From a virus, in IMG/VR virus record IMGVR_UViG_3300030101_003877, positions 1,014 to 27,713 of that record: DNA of 26,700 bases; one strand, 5' to 3'. The notes beneath the pieces were generated by a model that searched no databases, was not told the origin of the DNA, and was given only the letters and a program-made list of their open reading frames with translations. Made by a program: the position numbers and the translations under genes. This document shows, in pieces, positions 2,225 to 24,633 of the stretch; the first letter of the stretch is position 1, and each line of letters begins with the position of its first letter.

Positions 2225-4246
2225 ATGAACCAAGAACAATTACACTATCGAGTCACCGGAGATGCAAAAGGATTTAAAGGAGCAATAAATCAATCTCAAA
2301 AATCTCTTAATGGATTTCAACAGCAAATTAAAGGTGCAGCAAGTAGTTTAAAACTTTTATTTGTTGGTGGATTAACAATTGCAGGAACACAAGCTGTACG
2401 CTCAGCAAAGCAATTTGACCAATCAATGACAAGAATAAAATCTTTGGTAGGTGTTGCCGGAGATGAGGTCGATAAAATGGGTGTAGCTGCCATTGAGATG
2501 GCAACAAATACAGGCCGAAGTGCAAACGAAGCGGCCGAAGCGTTGTTCTTTATAACATCTGCAGGTTTGAGAGGTAAGGAGGCTATGGAAGTTTTAGAGG
2601 CATCTCTAAAAGCAGCAGCTATTGGTTTAGGGGAGACAAAAATTGTTGCTGATTTAGCTACATCTGCTCTGAACGCTTATGGAGCAGAAAACTTATCTGC
2701 TACGGGAGCAACAGATGTTCTTGTTACATCTGTGAGAGAAGGTAAATTAGAAGCAGATGAACTTGCACAATCTATGGGGCGAGTTTTACCTTTAGCATCA
2801 GCCATGGGAGTTGAATTTCATGAGGTTGGTGCAGCATTTGCAGCTCTATCGAGAACAGGTACAAACGCAGCAGAAGCAGCCACGCAGGTAAGAGGCATAT
2901 TATCAGCATTGCTAAAGCCAACACAACAAGCAGAAGAAGCCCTTGCAGAAATGGGTTTATCATCAGCCGAGCTTAGAATGCAATTAAGAGAAAAAGGTTT
3001 ATTATCTACTCTTAACACTTTAAAAAATGAGTTTGAAGGCAACGATGAAGCTGCAGCACAGGTTTTTGGTAATGTAAGAGCATTATCTGGTGTTTTAGAT
3101 TTAATGGGTGCTAATGCAGAGGGAACAGCTAAAATATTCGATTCACTCACAAGGTCACTTAATGCGACAAATACAGCTGCAGAAATAAATGCAGAATCTA
3201 TTTCTTTTCAACTTGATGCCGCATTTGCTAAACTTAGAAACAAAACTTTACCTCCATCGCAAAAAGCATTATTAGCATTTACAAACTTTCTGAACGGAAC
3301 AATTAGAGCATTTGAAATATTGGGACAGGTTGGTGGCCCACAAGATGAGTTCAGAAGAGAGTTAAAGAAAACTACTCTTGCAATTGATGAATTTAAAATA
3401 TCTGGAAAAGAAGCAACTAACGAGATGAAAGATTTGTTTTCTCAAGGTGCTGTTTTAGGTTTCTTAGGCGTAGAGACAGAAAACCAAGATTTAGATTTGT
3501 TAGCAAGAACTATATTAGCAAATCAAGGTGTCGAACCAACAAAGACAAAAGGTTTTGATACATTACTAGAGTTTAACAAAAAATTTGGAACATCATTTAA
3601 AGAATTAGCTGAGATAACTAATGAAGTGCAATTTGAGTTATTTATGGCTAATGATAAAGCCAATCTACTTAAAACAACATTTAAAGAATTAGGAGAAGGT
3701 GTAGCGGAAAATAAATTTGAATTATTAGAATACAGAACAGTAGTCGGTGAGGTATCAAGAACACAAGAGCAATTTGCTAGAATTGCAAACGCAGTAACTT
3801 TTGGAATGAATCTATTTTTTGATGCTATAAGTAATCCAGAGGGCTTCAATTCATTTATAAAAGGAATACAAAGAATAATTGCACAATTGTTAAAACAATT
3901 AGCAGTAATGGTTGCAATATCTGCGGTTGCCTCAGCCTTAGGATTTGGTTCATTTAAATCTGTTTTTGGTATGATATCTGGATTCGGTGGTGGTGGAGGA
4001 AGAAGCAGAGGGGGTGGTGGTCTTTTAAGTGGTGTTATGCCTTTTGCTAAAGGTGGTATAGTTACGAGCCCAGTCACCGGTCTGGTTGGTGAGCAGGGAG
4101 CAGAAGCTATAATACCATTAAGCAGATTACCTCAAATATTAAATAACACATCACAAAAAACAAAAGGTGAATTTACGCTGAGAGGACAAGATTTAATTTT
4201 AGCACTTGAGAGAGCAGGTGATTTTAGAGCAAGAGTAACAGGTTAG
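2225..4246 (+). CDS. Tail tape measure protein (TP901-type)
   Basis: 673 aa. Residues about 60-340 are the TP901 tape-measure core: FDQSMTRIKSLVGVAGDEVDKM, then repeated Ala-rich helices (ATNTGRSANEAAEALFFITSAG, TSALNAYG, VREGKLEADELAQSMGRVLP, FAALSRTGTNAAEAATQVRG). A hydrophobic helix lies near residues 545-570 (LLKQLAVMVAISAVASALGF), followed by a Gly-rich stretch and the end motif FAKGGIVTSPVTGLVGEQGAEAIIPLS that is common in tape measures. The family sets tail length; at about 0.15 nm per residue this length predicts a tail near 100 nm (an inference). It follows G/GT and is 4 nt from the tip gene, so the two are probably cotranslated. Confidence 0.93.
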   Translation: MNQEQLHYRVTGDAKGFKGAINQSQKSLNGFQQQIKGAASSLKLLFVGGLTIAGTQAVRSAKQFDQSMTRIKSLVGVAGDEVDKMGVAAIEMATNTGRSANEAAEALFFITSAGLRGKEAMEVLEASLKAAAIGLGETKIVADLATSALNAYGAENLSATGATDVLVTSVREGKLEADELAQSMGRVLPLASAMGVEFHEVGAAFAALSRTGTNAAEAATQVRGILSALLKPTQQAEEALAEMGLSSAELRMQLREKGLLSTLNTLKNEFEGNDEAAAQVFGNVRALSGVLDLMGANAEGTAKIFDSLTRSLNATNTAAEINAESISFQLDAAFAKLRNKTLPPSQKALLAFTNFLNGTIRAFEILGQVGGPQDEFRRELKKTTLAIDEFKISGKEATNEMKDLFSQGAVLGFLGVETENQDLDLLARTILANQGVEPTKTKGFDTLLEFNKKFGTSFKELAEITNEVQFELFMANDKANLLKTTFKELGEGVAENKFELLEYRTVVGEVSRTQEQFARIANAVTFGMNLFFDAISNPEGFNSFIKGIQRIIAQLLKQLAVMVAISAVASALGFGSFKSVFGMISGFGGGGGRSRGGGGLLSGVMPFAKGGIVTSPVTGLVGEQGAEAIIPLSRLPQILNNTSQKTKGEFTLRGQDLILALERAGDFRARVTG

Positions 4247-4250
4247 CGTT

Positions 4251-6566
4251 ATGGCATACGGAGAGAAATATTTTACTAACTTTTTTGATGACGATAATCA
4301 TAAATTCAGATTGCAAATATTTCAATGGGATTACAGCGGCACACCATCGTCAAATTTAACCTTAGCAGATAACGGTGTTACTGTCACCTATAGGCAAGAT
4401 GACGATTACTTTCAGCCTTTTATTGGTTCAACATGTAAATTAAGAATTTATGTAGAAGAGTCAACAGGTGGAGCAGAATGGCAAGTTGAAGAAACAAATT
4501 GGAATCTTGCTGATTTTGTTTGGGAGAGAAGTGAGTATGATTTTCTTATACCAACAAACGATAGAGAGTTTAAAATAAAAGTAAACAGAGAAAATGCAAA
4601 CGGCACAACAACTTCAACTACATCAAATAGTATTTTAAAAGATTCTACAGCATCGTTTAGCTCTGAGATTAAAGTTGGAGATTTAGTTGTTAACAATACA
4701 GATAATACCACAACAACAGTCTCAGCTGTCACCGATAATACAACTTTATCATTAAACTCGGATATATTTAGTTCTAGTACGACTACAGGTAAAAGCTACA
4801 CAATTTTTAGAAACTTTTACACAGGATTTATAATGCAGGACAGTTACAATCTTCCGATTGCACCTCATCCATTTGCTGTTGAAATTTTTGCATCTGATTT
4901 GATAGGTACAATAAATGGTTACGATATTGACTTAACTACGGAGAGGCCCAAAACATTTGACGTAATACAAAATTGTTTAAAAAAAATAAACTTAGAAAGT
5001 GGTGACGGAACATCTGGAAGAAGTTTAGATTTTACTTATAAAGTTTTATGTAGATTAAATCAAAGCACAGGCTCTGGTTTTAACAGCAATGATAACCCTT
5101 ATCTCAATACCTATATTTTAAGTGTTGATGGTTTACAAGATGAAAATGGTAATTATTTGAATTGTAAATATGTACTCGAATCAATACTTAGAATGTTCAA
5201 TTGTAGAATATTTCAACACGAGGGCTCATGGACAATTATTGACAATGCTTCCTTGGCCCTAACATCATTTAGTGATGGAGGTGGTGCATATTCTAAAGAG
5301 TTTAAAACGTATGATAAAAATGGCTCTGCCATTGGTACTGAATCAATTACTAACCCTGTGGTCAGTGTTAACAGCTCACAAAGCTCTGGAACGATGCAGC
5401 CACTTAACAATGATTTATTAAAAGTTATTAGGAGACCTGCAATCAGACAAAGAACACAGGTAAGAATAAAGGACACATTAAAATCAAGATTCAATAATGG
5501 AGGATATGAGAATAACACAGCACCCACAGGAGCTACGCCATCTTTTGGCAGAGATGTGACTGATTGGACTATTTCAGATAAAAGCAAGGCTTTTGCTGTA
5601 AATGAAACAGCACAACAATCTGGTGTTGTTTTTGGAATTACACCGTATGCAGGTCTTTTTTCACTCATAACTATCGGTAACAGTTCCTCAGCAACGGTAA
5701 TAGCTAGTAACAATACAGGTAATGTTGGAACTACATCTGAAGAAATAAAATTAAATTTTGCACACTATGCACTAGATATAAATAACACAGGGCAGCTTTT
5801 ACTGTATTCTATTAGATACCGTTTTGCAGTCATAGGTGTTGCAACATATTATTGGAAAGTTGACACACAGGAATGGACTACAAATGCAACACAAGGAATA
5901 AATACAATTACCGGCTCTGTGCAAGAGCAATGGATACTAAATGAGGTAAATATCAGCCCACCACCGGAAACAGGTACAGCTCAAATAGAATTTTTTCTTC
6001 CAAGAGAGCAGGGATTTGAAAGTGCTGATTTTAGAATATATTATGACGATGTTACATTGAGAAATCAATCTGACCTTGCATTCTTTGACACTAATACTTC
6101 AATTGTAAAAACAGAATTTTTAGAAAACAGCGGTGTTTTAAAATCTGTAGAAAATAGATTTGGTATGCTCAATGATACAAAATACTCAAATAGTTTAGTA
6201 GATAGTGCAGGTAATAGTATAACTGCATATAAAGGGTTTGATGATACACAGGGTGCTACATTAGAGGCTTTAATAAACAGACAAAGGTTGCAAGAATTTG
6301 CAACTAATAATTTTAGATATGAGGGTACATTTAGAAAAATTAAAGATAGCAATGGCTTTGTTAAAAACATTGATATGCTAACTTTTCCAAAAATAGCATT
6401 TACAACTTTATCTGAGGATAATCATCAAGCTATTGATAATATAAAATTTGAGGTTGCAAAGAATAGATATAAAATAACTTCACATATACCAACACAATCT
6501 AACCTTACATTGCTAGGTGATACAAACAGTATTACTGAATTTTATGAGCAGAAGCCAGAGGATTAA
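4251..6566 (+). CDS. Tail tip / distal tail hub protein
   Basis: 771 aa, the first gene after the tape measure. The N-terminus (MAYGEKYFTNFFDDDNHKFRLQIFQWDY...LADNGVTVTYRQDDDYFQPFIGS) matches a type I know from Bacteroidota phage tail-tip proteins: a distal-tail-like beta domain, then a larger domain with CLKKINLESGDG and YVLESILRMFNCRIFQHEGSWTIID. The middle is Asn/Ser/Thr-rich, with a possible carbohydrate-binding-like beta sandwich at about residues 420-600 (a guess from alternating hydrophobic strands). It probably joins lambda M/L/J-like functions in one protein, closing the tube and carrying the adsorption apparatus. It is the last gene of the rightward tail block. Confidence 0.7.
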   Translation: MAYGEKYFTNFFDDDNHKFRLQIFQWDYSGTPSSNLTLADNGVTVTYRQDDDYFQPFIGSTCKLRIYVEESTGGAEWQVEETNWNLADFVWERSEYDFLIPTNDREFKIKVNRENANGTTTSTTSNSILKDSTASFSSEIKVGDLVVNNTDNTTTTVSAVTDNTTLSLNSDIFSSSTTTGKSYTIFRNFYTGFIMQDSYNLPIAPHPFAVEIFASDLIGTINGYDIDLTTERPKTFDVIQNCLKKINLESGDGTSGRSLDFTYKVLCRLNQSTGSGFNSNDNPYLNTYILSVDGLQDENGNYLNCKYVLESILRMFNCRIFQHEGSWTIIDNASLALTSFSDGGGAYSKEFKTYDKNGSAIGTESITNPVVSVNSSQSSGTMQPLNNDLLKVIRRPAIRQRTQVRIKDTLKSRFNNGGYENNTAPTGATPSFGRDVTDWTISDKSKAFAVNETAQQSGVVFGITPYAGLFSLITIGNSSSATVIASNNTGNVGTTSEEIKLNFAHYALDINNTGQLLLYSIRYRFAVIGVATYYWKVDTQEWTTNATQGINTITGSVQEQWILNEVNISPPPETGTAQIEFFLPREQGFESADFRIYYDDVTLRNQSDLAFFDTNTSIVKTEFLENSGVLKSVENRFGMLNDTKYSNSLVDSAGNSITAYKGFDDTQGATLEALINRQRLQEFATNNFRYEGTFRKIKDSNGFVKNIDMLTFPKIAFTTLSEDNHQAIDNIKFEVAKNRYKITSHIPTQSNLTLLGDTNSITEFYEQKPED

Positions 6567-13397: not shown

Positions 13398-14582
13398 ATG
13401 AGAAAAAAAGTACAGGTTAAAGATATTATCCCTAATAAAGAAAATCCAAGAAATATATCAAAAGAAAAATACAAAAAGCTAATAAAATCAATTACTGATT
13501 TTCCACAAATGCTAGAAAAAAGGCCATTAGTTGTAGATGAAGATATGATGGTTCTTGGTGGCAATATGCGACTCAAAGCTTTACAAAAGGCAGGTATCAA
13601 AGAAGTAATTGTTGATATTGCCGAGGGATGGACAGATGAACAAAAAAAAGAATTTATTATCAAGGATAATGTAGGCTTTGGTGATTGGGATTTTGATATA
13701 CTTGCAAACGAATGGGATATAGATAAGCTGAATGAATGGGGTTTAGATTTTGATTTTAAAATAGAAACTGTGGTTGAGGAGGATGATTACATTGAGCCAG
13801 ATGATATTAAGGTTGATGTTGTTTTGGGTGATATTATAGAAATAGGTAAACACAGGCTTGTATGTGGGGATAGTACGGATTCAAAGCAGGTTGCCATACT
13901 AATGAATAAAAAGAAAGCGGACATGATTTTTACTGACCCTCCATATAATGCAAATTATAAATCAAGAGGCAAAAACGAAACTTTGAGAAAAGGTATTAAA
14001 AATGATAATATGCAGGATAATGATTTTGATGATTTTATAAATGCTTTTATTTCTACTTCAATATTATCTGTAAAAGATACTGCACCAATGTATTTTTGTT
14101 GTAATTGGAAAGATTCATACCCAAGATTTTATTTTAAGTTATTAGATGCCGATATTAATATTTCAGCAAATATTGTATGGAATAAAGGAAGTGGAGGTAT
14201 GGGTTGGCAAGATTACAGGTATCAATATGAATTTATTATTTATTGCTTTCAAAAAGATAAAGGTCACAAATGGTATGCAGACAGAAAGCAGACAGACATA
14301 TGGGATTTTAATAGGGATAATCGTGGTGCATATAAACACCCAACACAAAAACCCGTGGAGCTATCATCAAAGGCAATTCAAAACAGCTCCAAAAAAAAAA
14401 ATATAATCTTAGATTTATTTTTAGGTAGCGGCTCAACTATGATGGCCGCACATCAACTTGATAGAATTTGTTATGGTATGGAGCTAGACCCAAAATATTG
14501 TCAAGTTATTATTGACAGAATGATTAACTTTGACTCTGATATTACTGTAAAAATAAACGGCAAAAAATATAAAAGTGCTTGA
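13398..14582 (+). CDS. ParB-like domain fused to DNA (adenine-N6/cytosine-N4) methyltransferase
   Basis: 394 aa. Residues 1-77 are a ParB/Srx-like domain (IIPNKENPRNI, LVVDEDMMVLGGNMRLKALQKAG). The methyltransferase follows: DIIEIGKHRLVCGDS, motif IV DPPY at 180-183 (IFTDPPYNANYKSRG), HPTQKPVEL at 314, motif I DLFLGSGST at 339-347 and ELDPKYC at 362. Motif IV before motif I defines the beta class. It transfers a methyl group from SAM to an amino group of A or C. No matching restriction gene is seen, so it is probably an orphan enzyme protecting phage DNA or marking it for packaging or regulation. Confidence 0.88.
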   Translation: MRKKVQVKDIIPNKENPRNISKEKYKKLIKSITDFPQMLEKRPLVVDEDMMVLGGNMRLKALQKAGIKEVIVDIAEGWTDEQKKEFIIKDNVGFGDWDFDILANEWDIDKLNEWGLDFDFKIETVVEEDDYIEPDDIKVDVVLGDIIEIGKHRLVCGDSTDSKQVAILMNKKKADMIFTDPPYNANYKSRGKNETLRKGIKNDNMQDNDFDDFINAFISTSILSVKDTAPMYFCCNWKDSYPRFYFKLLDADINISANIVWNKGSGGMGWQDYRYQYEFIIYCFQKDKGHKWYADRKQTDIWDFNRDNRGAYKHPTQKPVELSSKAIQNSSKKKNIILDLFLGSGSTMMAAHQLDRICYGMELDPKYCQVIIDRMINFDSDITVKINGKKYKSA

Positions 14583-14661: not shown

Positions 14662-15021
14662 ATGAAAAGCAACAAAATACAACATACTAAAAAAGCATTA
14701 TTAGAATCTTTAGAAAAATCACTTGGTGTTGTTACAACTGCCTGTAAACAAGTAGGCATAGATAGAACAACATTTTACAGATATTATAAAGATGATAAGG
14801 TATTTGCTGCCAAAGTAGATGACTTAAGTAATGTGGCTAAAGATTTTGCAGAGAGTCAATTATTTAAACAGATACAGGATGGCAATCCTACATCAACAAT
14901 ATTTTATCTAAAAACAAAAGCAAAGGATAGAGGTTACGTTGAGAGAAGTGAATTGAGTTTAAATGGTTCTGTAGAAAGTAAATTAATTGAATGGAAACCG
15001 GCAGAAAAAAAGAAACAATAG
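14662..15021 (+). CDS. terS: Terminase small subunit (phBC6A51-type HTH)
   Basis: 119 aa. The N-terminal helix-turn-helix (ALLESLEKSLGVVTTACKQVGIDRTTFYRYYKDDKVFA) and the following helices (FAESQLFKQIQDGNPTSTIFYLKTKAKDRGYVER) are typical of small terminases of the phBC6A51 homeodomain-like type. It binds the packaging start site and feeds DNA to TerL. It overlaps terL by 31 bp. The 'one protein, one HTH, Lys-rich tail' form is of normal length. Confidence 0.82.
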   Translation: MKSNKIQHTKKALLESLEKSLGVVTTACKQVGIDRTTFYRYYKDDKVFAAKVDDLSNVAKDFAESQLFKQIQDGNPTSTIFYLKTKAKDRGYVERSELSLNGSVESKLIEWKPAEKKKQ

Positions 15022-16175
15022 AATGCAACATTCAATTTTATCAAACCATAAACTCTAACAAAAGAATTATCTTACATCAGGGTTCGTCACGTAGTGGAAA
15101 AACATATGCCCTTTGTCAATATATCATTTACCTACTAACAACAAGAAAAGATAAATTAGTTATAACGGTTGCAAGAAAAACACTACCTGCCTTAAAAGGT
15201 TCTGTGTACAGAGATTTTATAGAGATAGCACAAAGGGTTGGTATATATTATCTTGCTGAAATAAATAAAGCAGAGTTAACATTTAAATATAAAAATCACC
15301 TTGTCGAATTTATATCACTCGATAACGAGATGAAAGTCAGAGGTAGAAAAAGAAATATTTGTTGGCTCAATGAAGCCAACGAATTTTATTTATCTGATTT
15401 TGAACAGTTAGCACTTAGAACAAGTGAAAAAATATTATGTGACTTTAATCCATCGGATGTAATACACTGGCTTTATGATATAGGTAATAGAACAGATGCA
15501 GATTTATTTGTAACAACTTTTGAGGATAACGCCTTTTTAGATACTGAAATACGTAAAGAAATATTAAGAATGAAAGATACCGATAAAGATAGATGGAGGG
15601 TTTTTGGTTTAGGTTTAAGAGCTAATTTTAAAAGCGGTGCAATTTATGATAATTGGAATTGGATTGATTATAAAGATTTTTTAGATAAAGAACATACAGA
15701 GCTAGTTTATGGTATTGATTTTGGTTTTAGTAATGACCCTACAACAATAATTGAAATACGTAGAAAAAACGACAGATTATATATTCATGAGTTACTCTAT
15801 AAAAAGGGTTTAACAAATCAAGATTTATACCAAGAAATTAAAAAATTGAATCTTACAGAGCAGTTAATAATTTGTGATAGTGCTGAGCCCAAATCAATTG
15901 AAGAACTGAAAAGATTAAATTTATATGTTAAGCCATCACAAAAAGGAAAAGATAGCGTTTTAAATGGCATATCTACAATTAAGGAATATACCATATATGC
16001 ATCAAAAGAAAGCAAAAACTTATTTACAGAATATCAGTATTATGTATGGGAATCAAATCGAGATGGTGAGAGAATAAATAAGATAAAACAAAATGGTCAA
16101 GACCACTTGATGGATGCCTTACGTTATGGCGTTACTACAGGTTTGGCACGAGCAAGAGATTTTATCATTGTTTAA
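14991..16175 (+). CDS. terL: Terminase large subunit (Terminase_3 / PBSX type)
   Basis: 394 aa. ATPase: Walker A GSSRSGKT (31-38), adenine-motif region VARKTLPALKGSVYRDF, Walker B NICWLNEAN (122-130) and coupling motif LCDFNPS (149-155). Nuclease: D243 in GIDFGFSNDP, D296 in IICDSAEP, and D375 in HLMDALRYG, a metal-binding triad of RNase H-like type. It translocates DNA into the prohead and cuts the concatemer. The family and the gene order suggest pac- or cos-type packaging; the sequence alone does not decide which. Confidence 0.95.
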   Translation: METGRKKETIECNIQFYQTINSNKRIILHQGSSRSGKTYALCQYIIYLLTTRKDKLVITVARKTLPALKGSVYRDFIEIAQRVGIYYLAEINKAELTFKYKNHLVEFISLDNEMKVRGRKRNICWLNEANEFYLSDFEQLALRTSEKILCDFNPSDVIHWLYDIGNRTDADLFVTTFEDNAFLDTEIRKEILRMKDTDKDRWRVFGLGLRANFKSGAIYDNWNWIDYKDFLDKEHTELVYGIDFGFSNDPTTIIEIRRKNDRLYIHELLYKKGLTNQDLYQEIKKLNLTEQLIICDSAEPKSIEELKRLNLYVKPSQKGKDSVLNGISTIKEYTIYASKESKNLFTEYQYYVWESNRDGERINKIKQNGQDHLMDALRYGVTTGLARARDFIIV

Positions 16176-16209: not shown

Positions 16210-18675
16210 ATGGCAAGTTTTCTCCAAAGATTAAGGAATGGATTAAAAGCATTTAATTCACAGCAGACTAATGAATCATACAACAGATTCATTTATAATT
16301 TTTTAGGTAACAACACAATTTCAAACAACGAGTATAATGATGATTACATTGAAAAAGGATATGCATACAATCCAACAATATATTCGTTAATACAACTTAT
16401 ATCTAAATCAGCAGTTACAGTACCTTACTCTATTTACAGAAAAGTGGATGAGGGAGCAATGAAAGAATATAAAGCACTTACATCAAATAATTTAAATGAA
16501 GATTCTGTGCTCAAAGCAAAATTACTAAGAAAGCATACTTTGGAAGTTGTAGAACATACAGCACTTGGTAAACTTTTAGAAAGGCCTAACCCTGCTCAGT
16601 CTTGGGCCGTGTTTTTAGAGGAGTTGATTGGTTTTGGAAAATTAACAGGCAACAGATATATATATGGCATATCACCTGAAAATGGAGAAAATAAAAATAT
16701 TTACTACCAACTTTATAATTTACCTGCTCACCTCATAGAGATAAAATCAGATGGTATATTTAAACCTGTATCAAAATACACGATGATGTATAATAACAAT
16801 AAATATAATTTGACCTCTGATGAGGTTTTGCATATTGCTGACTTCAATCCAGATTATTCCAATGATGGCTCACACCTATATGGTCAATCACCAATACAAG
16901 CCGGCATGAGGGTTTTAACAACAAGTAACGAAGCAGTTGAAACAAATTTAAAATTTTTACATAATCAATCAGCCAGAGGAATGTTAACTCCCGATGATGA
17001 CCAACTCACACCAACCCAAGCTCAGCAAATGAAAGATGCATTTAGAAGAAACTTTCAAGGAACTAAATCAGCAAACGATGTAATGATAACAGGTAAAAAA
17101 TTCAGTTGGATAAACTTTGGGTTATCTACATCTGATTTGCAATTGTTAGAATCATACAATGCAACTATAAAAGATTTGTGTAATATTTTTGGTGTTCCTG
17201 TTCAGTTGCTAAACAACACAGAATCAACCACTTATGATAATTATAGAACTGCTAGAAAGGTATTATTTACAAATGCTGTAATCCCTGAGTTAAATAAAAT
17301 CAGAGATGAACTTAACAGGTGGTTAGTGCCAATGTTTGGAGAAGATTTATATTTTGATTTTGATTATAGTGCTGTTCCAGAACTTATGCCGGAACAAGAA
17401 AAACTTGTGGACACTCTTTCAAAATCATTTTGGTTAACTGCAAACGAAAAGAGACAGGCCCAAGGTTATGGAGTAGATGATGAGAACCCTGTAATGAATG
17501 AGTATTTAGTGCCATCAAATTTTATTCCTATATCTGATTTAGATATGGGTATTTCAAACGAATCTGCTTTTCCAGAGTTGGAGCAAGAGGAAGAGGAGGA
17601 AGTAGTAGAGGAAGAAGTTATTGAAGAAGTTATTGAGGAGGAAGAAGAACAAAAACAAGAGATAAATGCAAGGTTAAGAAAAGCATTACAAAAAAAAGCT
17701 GATGACCATAATGAGAAAGTAGGTAATGTAAAATCAAAAAGAACAAATGTTAGAACATTGTTTGCAGTTTATAAAAGAGGTATCGGTGCATATAGAAACA
17801 ATCCTCAATCAGTAAGGCCAACAGTAACAAGTGAACAGCAGTGGGCAATGGCCCGTGTGAACAGTTTTTTATATGCTTTGCGAAATGGAAGATTTAGAAG
17901 TGGCAAACATGACCAAGATTTATTGCCAGAAGGTCATCCAATGTCAACAAAGAAAACACAAAAAGCTATAAGTGATGAAGTTTATGACAATAGAGTTGAT
18001 GCACAAGAAAGAGCAGAGGCAATCGGTTGCTCTACAACACACACACACGAGACAGAGGATGGTATGGTTTATATGCCTTGTGCTAATATGGAAGAATTAC
18101 AAGAAAGATTAAATTCATATAAAAGTGAAAATAAAGATTTAGTTAGAGGTATGACCGATGTATTTACAACACAAGAAGAAGCAGAGGCAAGAGCAGAAGA
18201 GCTGGGTGGAAGTGGTTCTCATTCTCATACTTGGGATGGTGATGAAGTATTTATGCCATTTGAAACACACGAAGAATATAATGAAGCAGTAGGAAACAAA
18301 GATAAAGAAGAAGAGGAAGAAGAGTATAAACAGGAACTATACGATGATTATCCTAAATCAGTCAGTAACAATGCAAAAAGAGCACAGAAGATAAATGAAG
18401 AGTTTAATAATCCTTGTGCTACCTTAGTTGGTAAAAACAGAGCCAAAGATTTGATTGCAAGAAGAGGTTTAAGTTTAGATATTGTTAAAAAAACATTTGC
18501 TTATTTATCTAGAGCACATGAGTATGTCACAGGAGAGTATTTAGATGAAAAAGGAAAACCGATATGTGGCGATATTTCTTTTTCACTATGGGGTGGAAGT
18601 AACAAAGTTACAAATGTAGAGAATGATGTGATGTATAAATGGTGCAAAAAAATAATAGATAAAAGCGAGGAATAA
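16210..18675 (+). CDS. HK97-type portal protein with long multi-domain C-terminal extension
   Basis: 821 aa, about twice the usual HK97 portal. Residues 1 to about 445 are the portal: NPTIYSLIQLISKSAVTVPYSIY, LLERPNPAQSWAVFLEELIG, TSNEAVETNLKFLHNQSARGML, LESYNATIKDLCNIFGVPVQLL and TTYDNYRTARKVLFTNAVIPEL. Then come an acidic linker (456-481), a region at about 489-580 (KRTNVRTLFAVYKRGIGAY, WAMARVNSFLYALRNGRFRSG, LLPEGHPMS), two related 40-residue repeats (about 598-634 and 656-694: EAEARAEELG..GSHSH..DG..V.MPF), a second acidic run (697-706) and a final domain (710-815: YPKSVSNNAKRAQKINEE, CATLVGKNRAKDL, ISFSLWGG). These extra modules recur in other phage head proteins, but their job is unknown. 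Confidence 0.9.
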   Translation: MASFLQRLRNGLKAFNSQQTNESYNRFIYNFLGNNTISNNEYNDDYIEKGYAYNPTIYSLIQLISKSAVTVPYSIYRKVDEGAMKEYKALTSNNLNEDSVLKAKLLRKHTLEVVEHTALGKLLERPNPAQSWAVFLEELIGFGKLTGNRYIYGISPENGENKNIYYQLYNLPAHLIEIKSDGIFKPVSKYTMMYNNNKYNLTSDEVLHIADFNPDYSNDGSHLYGQSPIQAGMRVLTTSNEAVETNLKFLHNQSARGMLTPDDDQLTPTQAQQMKDAFRRNFQGTKSANDVMITGKKFSWINFGLSTSDLQLLESYNATIKDLCNIFGVPVQLLNNTESTTYDNYRTARKVLFTNAVIPELNKIRDELNRWLVPMFGEDLYFDFDYSAVPELMPEQEKLVDTLSKSFWLTANEKRQAQGYGVDDENPVMNEYLVPSNFIPISDLDMGISNESAFPELEQEEEEEVVEEEVIEEVIEEEEEQKQEINARLRKALQKKADDHNEKVGNVKSKRTNVRTLFAVYKRGIGAYRNNPQSVRPTVTSEQQWAMARVNSFLYALRNGRFRSGKHDQDLLPEGHPMSTKKTQKAISDEVYDNRVDAQERAEAIGCSTTHTHETEDGMVYMPCANMEELQERLNSYKSENKDLVRGMTDVFTTQEEAEARAEELGGSGSHSHTWDGDEVFMPFETHEEYNEAVGNKDKEEEEEEYKQELYDDYPKSVSNNAKRAQKINEEFNNPCATLVGKNRAKDLIARRGLSLDIVKKTFAYLSRAHEYVTGEYLDEKGKPICGDISFSLWGGSNKVTNVENDVMYKWCKKIIDKSEE

Positions 18676-19691
18676 TGCCACTACCAACGCCCAAGCCATT
18701 AGAATCTGATAATCAATTTATGAGAAGGTGTATGATAGATGATACAACGTCATCTGAGTACCCAAACCGGAGTCAAAGGTTTGCTGTATGTAATAATCTT
18801 TTACAACAGAAAAAAATTGAAACAAAACAAAATGAGCAAAAGATTGCCAGAGCTTTTGGCAAACAAATAAAAATTGCACAAAAGAAAAACTATCCTCTTG
18901 TATATCAATATTATATGAAAAATTACACAAAGGCTATGGATTTTTATCGTTTGGATGAATCTGAAACAAATCAAAATTATAATACTTTGTTTCAAGAAAA
19001 AGAAATGACCGAGATGTATAAACAAATGTACAGGCAAACAGGTTTACGTTTTTATTTATGGTATAGAAAAAACTTTAAATTATTTATAGAAAAATTAAAT
19101 AAAATAGAGTTAGATAGATTAATTGATAAAATAGAAAGAGGCAGAAAATTAACACCCAGAGAAATGCAAAACTTAGAATCAACTGTTTTGTCCGGTATGG
19201 ATAGATATGCCACGCAAAGAACAAATTATCTTGCTTTAGCTTCACAAGTCACATCAATTAGTGGGGTAGCAAGAAATACACTAAAAAAAGTTATAAAAGA
19301 GCTAACTGCCGATGAAAGATTTATGTCTCTTGGTTTAGAGCCTCGTGTAAAGGAGATAATGAAACGTTTAAAATTTAAATCTAGGTGGATGGCTCGTAGA
19401 GTTGTACAAACAGAGACTACAGCAGCGGCTAATAATGGGATATCTATATCAGCTCAAAATGTTTATGGAAAAGATAATTTATTTAAAAAATGGATTGCAG
19501 GAGGTGCAAATATAAGAGATACACATTCAACGGCTATGTCTATATATTCCAAAAAGCCAATACCAGAGGATAAACCTTATTTGGTAGGCTCATCTTATTT
19601 AATGTTCCCTGCTGATACATCTCTTGGTGCTTTAGCAAAAGAGGTTGTCAATTGCAAGTGTATATCTCTGCCCATTGTAAAAGCTGATTAA
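18675..19691 (+). CDS. Minor head protein, SPP1 gp7 / Mu gpF-like
   Basis: 338 aa. The C-terminal domain carries the family pattern: WIAGGANIRDTHS (W273), PYLVGSSYLMFPADTSLGALAKEVVNCKCIS with CKC at 327-329. The N-terminus (MPLPTPKPLESDNQFMRRCMIDDTTSSEYPNRSQRFAVCNNL) is a separate small module that I recall at the N-termini of several phage head and protease proteins. The middle is a long helical region. Family members sit inside the head near the portal and help DNA delivery or head assembly. The start codon shares one base with the portal stop. Confidence 0.85.
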   Translation: MPLPTPKPLESDNQFMRRCMIDDTTSSEYPNRSQRFAVCNNLLQQKKIETKQNEQKIARAFGKQIKIAQKKNYPLVYQYYMKNYTKAMDFYRLDESETNQNYNTLFQEKEMTEMYKQMYRQTGLRFYLWYRKNFKLFIEKLNKIELDRLIDKIERGRKLTPREMQNLESTVLSGMDRYATQRTNYLALASQVTSISGVARNTLKKVIKELTADERFMSLGLEPRVKEIMKRLKFKSRWMARRVVQTETTAAANNGISISAQNVYGKDNLFKKWIAGGANIRDTHSTAMSIYSKKPIPEDKPYLVGSSYLMFPADTSLGALAKEVVNCKCISLPIVKAD

Positions 19692-19739: not shown

Positions 19740-20450
19740 ATGAGTAATGTTATATATAAACAAGGTCAGATAAGTGACATTGATGAAAATTTAGGAATTG
19801 TAAAAGGTTATGGTTCTGTTTTTGGTAATGTAGATTCAGATAAAGATATTATAGAAAAAGGTGCTTACAGAAGAACCATCAAAAATAATGGTTCAAGAAT
19901 AAAGTATTTATATCAGCACGATATTACTAAACCAATTGGCAAGATGAAAGAATTATATGAGGATGATAAGGGACTGGTTTTTGTTGCTGAAATTCCTAAA
20001 ACTACATTTGGAAATGAAGTATTAGAACTTATGAGATACGGTGTTATCGATGAGAACAGCGTAGGTATTATGCCTGTGAAAAAAGATTATAAAGAGGATG
20101 GTGTTAGAATAATAAAAGAAGCAAAGTTGTATGAAATATCTGCTGTAACAATTGCAGCTAATGATGAGGCCAAAATATTAGAGGTAAAAGGTGAAGTTAA
20201 TAACATAGATTACCTCTCAAAGAGATTTGATAATTTAATTAAAGTAATTAGAAAAGGTAATGTTTCTGATGACTTGGGTTATCTTATTGAATATGAATTA
20301 GAAGTTTTAAAATCTTTGATTGCTCGTGATAATACACACCAATCAGATGAGGAGCTAACTCGTGATAATACACACTTAGAAGCCAAAGAAGATAATATGA
20401 CTTCAGATTCAATAATTAATTATATGTTTAACAATTTAAATTCAAAATAA
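19740..20450 (+). CDS. HK97-family prohead protease (peptidase U35 type)
   Basis: 236 aa. Catalytic candidates: H60 in KYLYQHDITKPIG, S107 in GVIDENSVGI, and E132 in KLYEISAVTIAAN, the usual His-Ser-Glu arrangement of the HK97 gp4 family. The N-terminal GYGSVFGNVDSDKDIIEKGAY is also typical. The C-terminal 60-70 residues are a variable tail with an in-frame duplication giving RDNTH twice (196-200, 208-212). It cleaves the capsid delta domain and itself during maturation. Its stop shares one base with the capsid ATG. Confidence 0.93.
   Translation: MSNVIYKQGQISDIDENLGIVKGYGSVFGNVDSDKDIIEKGAYRRTIKNNGSRIKYLYQHDITKPIGKMKELYEDDKGLVFVAEIPKTTFGNEVLELMRYGVIDENSVGIMPVKKDYKEDGVRIIKEAKLYEISAVTIAANDEAKILEVKGEVNNIDYLSKRFDNLIKVIRKGNVSDDLGYLIEYELEVLKSLIARDNTHQSDEELTRDNTHLEAKEDNMTSDSIINYMFNNLNSK
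20323..20375 (+). repeat. 17-bp direct repeat in the protease tail, 36-bp period
   Basis: CTCGTGATAATACACAC occurs at 20323-20339 and again at 20359-20375. The 36-bp period equals 12 codons, so the reading frame is kept and the peptide RDNTH is doubled. Confidence 0.85.
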
Positions 20451-21667
20451 TGGATGAGAATATAAAAAAGCAGTTAGACGATATTTGTAATGTTATTGAT
20501 GAGAAGCTAGAGAAATCAGCAGCGTCAATCAAAGATAATGTTAACAATGAAGTTGATACTGTAATAAAAGGCGAGGTAAATAACCTCGTTGAAAAGCATT
20601 CAGAAATAGTTGAAAGATTAGACAAAATCGAAGTTGAAAACAAAAAAAATAACTTTGAGGGAGTTTATAAAACTAAATCTGAAGCATTTACTGAGGAGCT
20701 ACAAAAAAGCGAATCATTAAAAGCAATGAAGGAAGGTTCAAGAGCAAATGCCTCAATAGAATTAAAGGCAGATGTTTTAATATCTTCTGATTTTTCCGGT
20801 GCGAGTTCATCTAGAGATGCAACAGGTGTATTAACAGTTGATGGCATCAAAAGAGACCCATCGAATGTGACGAATATGATGGGAATCATTCCGGTTGGTT
20901 CAACTGATTCTAACGTAATTAGATACGTTAAGGAGTCAGCTTATACTGATAACGCTGCAAATGTTGCAGAAGGTTCAGCTCCAACTGATAGTGAGTTCCA
21001 ACTCACAGCTGAGGATGCAGTAGTTCAAAAAACTACAGCGGTCATGACCATTTCACAAGAGATGTTAGATGATACTCCTGGCTTAAGCTCCTATTTATCA
21101 CAGAGATTACCTGCAAAAATTAACACGGTAATTGATGACCAGTTGATTGGTGGTTCAGGTAGTTCACCTAATTTATTAGGATTAATGAATGGTGGTACAA
21201 CTTTTGCAGCAGGTGGATTTGCAAATGCAATTGAATCAGCACAGGAATTGGATGTATTATATGTGGCAATGAATCAGTTAGCCTTAGCTAACTACGCTGC
21301 AAATGGTATCGTGCTTAATCCAACTGATTTCCATAAAATCGCATTACTGAAAGATACTACAAATGAGTATCTAAGAGGTAATTCACTTGTTTCAGCGGAC
21401 GGTTTCTTTAGGATAAATGGTGTTCCGGTCTACATGAATAATAAAATGGCGGCAGGAAACTTTGTTGTAGCAGATTTTTCACAAGCCTCACAAGTATGGC
21501 AAAGAGAAGGATTGAAAGTCGACTTCGGATATGAAGATTCGGATAACTTCTCCAAGTATCTTGTTTCAGTTCGTGGAATAGCTAGAATAGCACACTCAAT
21601 TTATTTACCAACAGGTATTGTAAAGGGTGCGTTCTCAACTGCTAAAACAGCGTTAGAGACTTCATAA
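20450..21667 (+). CDS. Major capsid protein, HK97 fold
   Basis: 405 aa. Residues 1 to about 100 form a charged coiled coil (KKQLDDICNVIDEKLEK...KHSEIVERLDKIEVENKKNNFE), the delta/scaffold domain removed by the protease. The shell part has HK97-type features: RDATGVLTVDGI, NVIRYVKESAYTDNAANVAEGSAPTDSEFQL, VVQKTTAVMTISQEMLDD (the A-domain/spine region), INTVIDDQLIGGSGSSPNLLGLMN, NGIVLNPTDFHKIALLKDT, and VYMNNKMAAGNFVVADF. Less A+T-rich codons than the neighbours suggest selection for high expression. A strong terminator follows. Confidence 0.95.
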   Translation: MDENIKKQLDDICNVIDEKLEKSAASIKDNVNNEVDTVIKGEVNNLVEKHSEIVERLDKIEVENKKNNFEGVYKTKSEAFTEELQKSESLKAMKEGSRANASIELKADVLISSDFSGASSSRDATGVLTVDGIKRDPSNVTNMMGIIPVGSTDSNVIRYVKESAYTDNAANVAEGSAPTDSEFQLTAEDAVVQKTTAVMTISQEMLDDTPGLSSYLSQRLPAKINTVIDDQLIGGSGSSPNLLGLMNGGTTFAAGGFANAIESAQELDVLYVAMNQLALANYAANGIVLNPTDFHKIALLKDTTNEYLRGNSLVSADGFFRINGVPVYMNNKMAAGNFVVADFSQASQVWQREGLKVDFGYEDSDNFSKYLVSVRGIARIAHSIYLPTGIVKGAFSTAKTALETS

Positions 21668-23720: not shown

Positions 23721-24151
23721 AAGATGCTTCTCATATTATACGTAAGGAGGTTTTTACAACATTAAATGGTAATATAACTTTAAATAGCTCTACAGTACCT
23801 GTTTACAATGTAGTGCCATCCTCAGCATCTGAGCCATATATACTCATATCATCAATTAGCAATTTAATTTTTGATAATATAAAAGATTCATATCTTAACA
23901 ACGTACAAACACAGGTCGAAATTGTAACAGCATTTGATACCAATACAGGTGGTCAGTTAGATGCAAATTTAGCTATGAATCAGATAACACAAAGATTAAT
24001 TTCAAGAACAAGTTTCTTTGATATAAGCTCAGATAATTTTAAATGTATATCTGCACAAAACGATGGCATCACATATTTAACTGAGGATACAGAAACTCAA
24101 ACCATTTACAGAGGCATTTTAACATTCTCAAATCTTGTTGAGGAGTTATGA
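23717..24151 (+). CDS. Tail terminator / DUF3168-like protein
   Basis: 144 aa. Family pattern: VPVYNVVPSSASEPYILISSI, then VQTQVEIVTAFDTNTGGQLDANLAMNQITQRL and a final EDTETQTIYRGILTFSNLVEEL. These proteins cap the tail tube and join it to the head (lambda U-like). In lambda-type phages the tube protein gene follows; here the lysis cassette comes next (4-bp overlap) and the tube gene is at 1019. Confidence 0.82.
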   Translation: MKDASHIIRKEVFTTLNGNITLNSSTVPVYNVVPSSASEPYILISSISNLIFDNIKDSYLNNVQTQVEIVTAFDTNTGGQLDANLAMNQITQRLISRTSFFDISSDNFKCISAQNDGITYLTEDTETQTIYRGILTFSNLVEEL

Positions 24152-24633
24152 GGTTGGAATTATACAGATATAGTTCACAAAAAGATAGTACCTTAGGCAT
24201 ATTATATTTAGTAGATGATGAAACAGACCACAAAAATTTTTTATGCTTTACTCTTGAAGATGAAAAAAGGGAGGTCAAAGTTTATGGAGAAACTCGCATA
24301 CCTCAAGGCACTTATCCGATTAAATACAGAACGGAGGGAGGTTATTTCATTAAGTACAAAAAAAGGTTTCCTGATTTACACAGCGATAAAAGAGGCGTTT
24401 TACACATTGATGATGTTCCTGATTTTAAGTTTATTCTTCTGCATTGTGGCAATACTACTGAGCATACACATGGTTGTCTACTTGTTGGGGATGTTATATC
24501 ACAAAATATTAGCAAAGAGCCGTTTTTAGGGCAAAGTACAAGTGCTTACAAAAGAATATATCCAATTATTGCTGACGTTTTAGATTCGCAAAAACAACTT
24601 TCAATTAAAATTATTAATTTTGAGCAAAGCTAA
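24148..24633 (+). CDS. DUF5675-like protein, candidate peptidoglycan-acting enzyme (lysis)
   Basis: 161 aa. Fits the DUF5675 pattern: FTLEDEKREVKVYGETRIPQGTYPIKYRT, VLHIDDVPDF (H86), ILLHCGNTTEHTHGCLLVG (H99, H106, H108, C110) and STSAYKRIYP. The HGC motif after an upstream His resembles the active site of YkuD-type L,D-transpeptidases, so a cell-wall role is likely but not shown. No lysozyme, amidase or signal peptide is found elsewhere in the window. It begins the cassette with several small membrane proteins. Confidence 0.7.
   Translation: MRLELYRYSSQKDSTLGILYLVDDETDHKNFLCFTLEDEKREVKVYGETRIPQGTYPIKYRTEGGYFIKYKKRFPDLHSDKRGVLHIDDVPDFKFILLHCGNTTEHTHGCLLVGDVISQNISKEPFLGQSTSAYKRIYPIIADVLDSQKQLSIKIINFEQS

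Follow-up and report, generated by a model that had tools for sequence, protein, structure and literature searches.

The portal gene and its C-terminal tail

The window analysed here (the whole stretch of 26,700 nucleotides, positions 1,014 to 27,713 of IMG/VR virus record IMGVR_UViG_3300030101_003877) encodes, in order, a terminase, a portal, a MuF-like protein, an S78 prohead protease and an HK97 capsid protein. The portal is assigned to the HK97 type from profile matches over its core (Phage_portal at aa 110-418 and TIGR01537, portal_HK97, at aa 102-420) together with its site between the terminase and the head genes. A first-pass annotation had described a modular portal tail at 17560-18672; this stretch is in frame with the portal ORF and corresponds to aa 451-821 (371 aa), and every piece described was recovered, namely an acidic linker, a basic region, two histidine-containing repeats, a second acidic run and a terminal CATLVGK...SLWGG domain. 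We refer to the basic region as module B, to the repeats as C1 and C2, and to the terminal domain as module E. The features are as follows.

14991-16175, upstream of the portal: terminase
16210-18675, + strand: portal ORF, 821 aa, HK97-type
16210-17559, + strand: portal core, aa 1-450, HK97/PF04860 type (Phage_portal E 7e-54, portal_HK97 E 7e-39)
17560-17664, + strand: acidic linker, aa 451-485, net charge -18 by charge count
17665-17958, + strand: module B, aa 486-583, basic (+14), all-helical and DUF5824-like (PF19141, AlphaFold2)
17971-18105, + strand: module C1, aa 588-632, DUF3721 repeat with a Cys pair (GCSTTHTH...MPC; PF12518, 31.4 bits)
18154-18294, + strand: module C2, aa 649-695, DUF3721 repeat without the Cys pair (GGSGSHSH...MPF; PF12518, 29.7 bits)
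18295-18339, + strand: second acidic run, aa 696-710, by charge
18340-18663, + strand: module E, aa 711-818, five-helix domain, CATLVGK...SLWGG (PHROG 2859 segment, AlphaFold2)
18675-19691, + strand: MuF-like head morphogenesis gene (phrog_2468, E 5e-16), overlapping the portal stop by one base
18675-18821, + strand: RCM module (MPLPTPKP...RCM...EYP..QR.AVC) at the N-terminus of the MuF-like gene, from comparison with relatives
19740-20450, + strand: S78 prohead protease (PF04586, E 1e-29)
20450-21667, + strand: HK97-fold major capsid protein, MCP (PF05065, E 4e-36)

In the window C1 and C2 have net charges of -10 and -12 and module E of +5; for module B the mean net charge is +8.8 across 72 sequences. 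The RCM module has two cysteines in the window and is mobile, being found in relatives at the N-terminus of either MuF or the S78 protease. A DUF5675 protein, possibly lysis related, is encoded in the late region at 24148-24633.

Module families and predicted folds

Each module was searched alone. Module B matches PF19141 (DUF5824) at 28.8 bits against a gathering cut-off of 25, and the match is partial, spanning positions 58-111 of 127 (about 55 positions). C1 and C2 each match PF12518 (DUF3721) above the cut-off of 27 bits, both over positions 1-32 of 33. Module E corresponds to positions 164-267 of PHROG 2859 (profile E 2.3e-7 against the genome), and no Pfam family was found for it by profile search. 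PHROG 2859 is a 740-column composite of unknown function, of which the window portal has the E segment only; proteins of CRP-831, HRTV-28, HGTV-1 and DC31 match this same segment. The composite also matches a stretch overlapping the ParB region of the gene at 13398-14582, in which a ParB-like N-terminal domain is fused to an N6/N4 DNA methylase. HMMs seeded from the window E and from the E of CRP-831 reach nearly one set (236 and 239 domain hits), and iterated HMMs begun from C1 and from C2 likewise converge on nearly one set. The earlier statement that the modules have no assigned role holds in so far as these families lack an assigned function, but the modules do have family names; no mention of DUF3721 or DUF5824 was found in the literature searched. 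No enzyme, nuclease, toxin or known DNA-binding family or fold was found in the tail using Pfam, PHROGs, NCBIfam and Foldseek.

Structure prediction, suggested by the first-pass annotation, gave confident AlphaFold2 folds for B, C1 and E. Two stretches were modelled, from input alignments without rows from phage records: B+C1 (pLDDT 95.1, pTM 0.77) and E (pLDDT 93.5, pTM 0.84). B is predicted to be all-helical, C1 to form a helix, a beta-hairpin and a helix, and E to consist of five helices; the helix expected after MPC in C1 is present in the model. Neither model has a significant PDB match by Foldseek, nor did a profile search give one. A known fold for C was considered and set aside, the weak matches being mainly designed repeat proteins. 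Against the viral structure library BFVD, module E has 39 Foldseek matches at E<=0.001, and those with names include XkdF-type proteases, prohead proteases, portals (among them the Halorubrum tailed virus 4 portal) and ParB-like proteins.

The paired HTH/HSH repeats had been proposed to bind metal, and ligand counts over 90 parsed C repeats do not bear this out. The first histidine hardly varies, yet 15 of the 90 repeats have E, M, Q, V, F or T at the position of the second, and the C2-type (HSH) repeats have Gly/Phe in place of both cysteines; metal binding by the paired histidines as a general property was therefore rejected, and a His-based site common to both repeats is not supported by the sequences. 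The Cys pair of C is all-or-none (53 repeats with both, 37 with neither and none with a single cysteine), counts that are not independent events since subfamily members share ancestry. In module E a Cys pair is likewise all-or-none across the aligned set, and Cys-bearing E is found in several unrelated contexts. From this pattern the paired cysteines are likely to contact each other, whether in a disulfide, in packing or at a metal site. For the pattern scan of E we used single sequences in place of alignment A1, which was too divergent.

Carriers, gene position and exchange

That the tail is modular, with modules that recur on other head proteins of different phages, agrees with the first-pass annotation and is supported both by an architecture survey and by named viruses, some of them archaeal. 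Across 293 loci the carriers are portal C-termini, N-termini of proteases or protease-MCP fusions, MuF N-termini and stand-alone ORFs. Portal architectures include PORTAL-B-C-E, PORTAL-C-B-E, PORTAL-B-C-C-E and PORTAL-C-C-E-B, and the others include E-B-S78-MCP, C-S78, B-E-MUF and a stand-alone E-C-B; at one locus (L252) the tail is divided, with C on the portal and B-E on MuF. Proteases and protease-MCP fusions often bear module E N-terminally. In comparison with a scaffold (delta) domain, the modules of the window lie on the portal, and those of the E-B-S78-MCP fusions lie N-terminal to both protease and MCP.

Module E is present in the portals of HRTV-28 and HATV-3, the proteases of HGTV-1 and phiPsal1, the capsid fusions of S-CBS1/S-CBS3 and CRP-831, in DC31, and in Vibrio phages. 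In HRTV-28 gp10, a portal-MuF fusion, E stands behind the portal core as it does in the window, and in HGTV-1 gp11, a prohead protease, E stands behind the protease together with a DUF3721-like repeat; both differ from the window protein in their 29-35% identity, archaeal hosts and other flanking modules. Roseobacter phage CRP-831 gp40, annotated as a major capsid protein, likewise bears E and then B, but there the two precede a fusion of S78 protease and MCP and are not on the portal. The C repeat was not found in cultured phage records by tblastn, and its spread is seen in IMG/VR and, by profile, in HGTV-1 only; in the loci described here DUF3721 is fused to head proteins and falls into one subtype that has the Cys pair and one that lacks it.

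Gene position was compared over 149 deduplicated loci in which both a portal gene and an HK97 capsid gene were recognised. Every one of their 288 B, C and E copies falls between portal core and MCP core, a count that applies to loci picked by their modules or portals with flanks of <=6 kb and is not genome-wide; the interval averages 31% of locus length. A recognised head gene is present in 273 of 278 module loci, and the remaining five include apparent other capsid types, as read from the sequence rather than profiled. Exceptions to the head-locus rule include L045, L076, L103, PaBG gp148 and the distant DUF5824 copies near replication genes described below. In L045 and L076 the module protein, again read from sequence, follows the head-tail connectors. 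The product of Pseudomonas phage PaBG gp148 (L312, 5977-6309) is a stand-alone 110-aa E beside DNA topoisomerase II genes and is annotated as a putative DNA-binding protein.

Module B was found 13 times in 84,980 species genomes; seven of these finds share a contig with recognised phage head genes, and at least three of the other six, which are distant copies, have phage-like surroundings. Distant DUF5824 copies lie near recombinase and primase or replication genes, and the top-scoring members of the family encountered in this analysis either belong to large-phage proteins that have cytidylyltransferase domains or are neighbours of replication genes; the B subfamily, in contrast, is carried by head proteins. 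In L302-L306 a distant DUF5824 occurs in proteins of large-phage type that also show cytidylyltransferase-like, DUF6321 and CW..Y..VG....G..VPNCVP motifs; HRTV-28 gp10 has a similar motif.

Close relatives were identified on 28 IMG/VR contigs for the tail and 37 for the portal core. Of the portals, 60 distinct ones have a complete C-terminus, although some are cut at the N-terminus; 57 of these carry E, 58 carry C and 53 carry B, and one has no module. Module B is absent from L026, L028, L266 and L269, the C count is one or two per portal, and module order varies. The module-free case is a single 4-kb metagenome contig (L282), whose portal core is 93% identical to that of the window; it retains the acidic linker only, ends 67 aa from the SDLDM motif and is followed directly by a MuF gene, which is intact, and by a gene for the protease. 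We found no second occurrence of this C-terminus in IMG/VR. Because so similar a portal has none of them, the modules are accessory, as judged by sequence comparison. In L018 (portal ORF 3651-5942) a frameshift, either a sequencing error or a real variant, takes away module E.

The tail is under purifying selection and is maintained: dN/dS in B and E is about 0.06-0.25 against ten relatives, where dS is estimable. The tail is thus not debris, and the suspicion that it could prove a degenerate leftover is countered on this point, even though the complete lack of modules in L282 beside intact downstream head genes partly accords with it.

Exchange between lineages is seen for C2, which is 95.7% identical in DNA to L003, L004 and L006, with a dS of 0.23 versus 1.75-2.0 for the portal cores; this contrast indicates that the repeat was transferred recently between lineages. 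The window B is 71% identical over 98 aa to that of CRP-831, while alignment is marginal both for the two portals (E 0.048) and for the MCPs (E 0.001 over 46 aa). Unusual constraint is insufficient to account for this likeness because in most pairs within the clade of the window the rate of change of B equals or exceeds that of the portal core, and horizontal transfer appears the better explanation. Changes of carrier protein number 10 on the B tree and 14 on the E tree, which are not taken as proof since few branches are well supported and the starred B-tree branches force only one change.

Possible roles of the tail modules

The tail strings together small domains, B, C1, C2 and E, each apparently autonomous, on acidic linkers, and the property that the modules have in common would be delivery into the assembling prohead, because they change carrier yet, in every HK97-type locus examined, fall between portal core and capsid core. 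In tailed phages the portal crown, MuF and the protease all lie within the head as it assembles, and the modules most likely end there as well; the earlier idea that the tail projects into the head or carries cargo would fit this shared location of all the carrier proteins. The explanation we prefer, at a little under an even chance, is that the modules are head-interior passengers on the portal, apart from its own mechanism, with B and possibly E contacting DNA or being ejected. Basic B, and possibly E, would then meet the packaged DNA or leave with it as accessory proteins, and S78 cleavage may free the modules. DNA contact is hinted at by the basic charge of B and by the DNA-metabolism neighbourhood of some distant relatives; the acidic C repeats are a point against it. 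Ejection with the genome is possible by analogy with the proposal for domains linked to portal and MuF proteins (PMC5512222); a search of the literature yielded neither proteomics nor translocation results for these phages.

A further point against passengers of this kind is that in the protease-MCP fusions the modules belong to the portion that maturation should remove; this would favour a role before packaging and makes such a role the main rival. B, C and E would then be assembly modules that, for example, bind a scaffold (delta) domain or recruit the protease or MuF, and that are destroyed or expelled as the head matures. All of the carriers are early head-assembly proteins, the modules are kept in viruses of bacteria and archaea alike, and maturation would remove E from the protease and protease-MCP N-termini at which it is common; a core assembly function, however, should not be lost or reshuffled among near-identical phages, in several of which B is missing and in which C count and order vary, nor should L282 have intact MuF and protease genes with no modules. 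We regard an assembly role as possible but doubtful. An extension specific to the portal, enlarging the crown or plugging the channel and working only as part of the 12-fold portal, would account for the presence of at least one module in 59 of the 60 complete C-termini in the clade of the window, but it is quite unlikely given that other phages place the modules on protease, MuF or free ORFs, where the expected copy numbers differ, and that one close relative does without them.

Domains fused to portal or MuF are already known, and those described by Iyer et al. (2017, PMC5512222) are shuffled between phages and are proposed to be packaged with the genome and injected. The tail resembles these polyvalent/MuF effector systems in that extra domains are appended to the portal or MuF of tailed phages, and its modules could similarly be effectors of host takeover or counter-defence that, once ejected, act against a host target. 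An arms race of this kind would fit with the shuffling of the modules, their dispensability and their horizontal exchange. The domains of PMC5512222 are predicted enzymes (such as PBECR RNases, 2H phosphoesterases and InPases), whereas searches of Pfam, PHROGs and NCBIfam place none of B, C and E in an enzymatic family, so that the window tail shares the portal/MuF fusion of the effectors and not an enzymatic or toxin domain; unlike those fusions, the modules are also found on the protease and the protease-MCP fusion, and dN/dS is low, with diversifying selection not seen. We therefore think effectors unlikely. That the HTH/HSH repeats are metal sites giving the tail a metal-dependent function is highly improbable: the conserved first histidine and the paired cysteines of one C subtype speak for it, but the second histidine is not strictly kept, the C2-type repeats lack both cysteines, and a disulfide or packing explains the Cys pair equally well. 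A functionless remnant of gene fusion is scarcely tenable and is largely refuted by purifying selection, the confident predicted folds and retention in 59 of 60 portals also opposing it, whatever support it draws from the module-free relative and the frameshifted tail of L018.

Set beside the preferred explanation of head-interior passengers is a broader and more tentative proposal, which we hold at appreciably less than an even chance, that tailed viruses of bacteria and archaea share an unrecognised kit of small non-enzymatic modules (B, C, E, RCM, Tudor-like and PNEHAARL-type) that enter the prohead on any early head protein, act in the capsid or after ejection, and shuffle independently of their carriers. 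Within the literature searched, two aspects appear to be new: a non-enzymatic module set common to portal, MuF, protease and capsid precursor in bacterial and archaeal viruses, and the conservation of head-operon position rather than carrier. A mobile kit would predict that the modules are inside the head. Portals, proteases, MuF proteins and capsid precursors of many environmental phages bear these domains and are annotated by the host protein only, and a kit tied to gene position would explain labels such as 'major capsid protein' for an E-B-protease-capsid fusion. The CRP-831 protein with this label is an E-B-PNEHAARL-protease-capsid fusion, and the roseophage paper does not mention a protease or a fusion; the 'major capsid protein' of S-CBS3 also has E near its N-terminus, and capsid annotations of this type, as on these two genes (L030 4473-7397 and L313 3965-6475), hide other domains.
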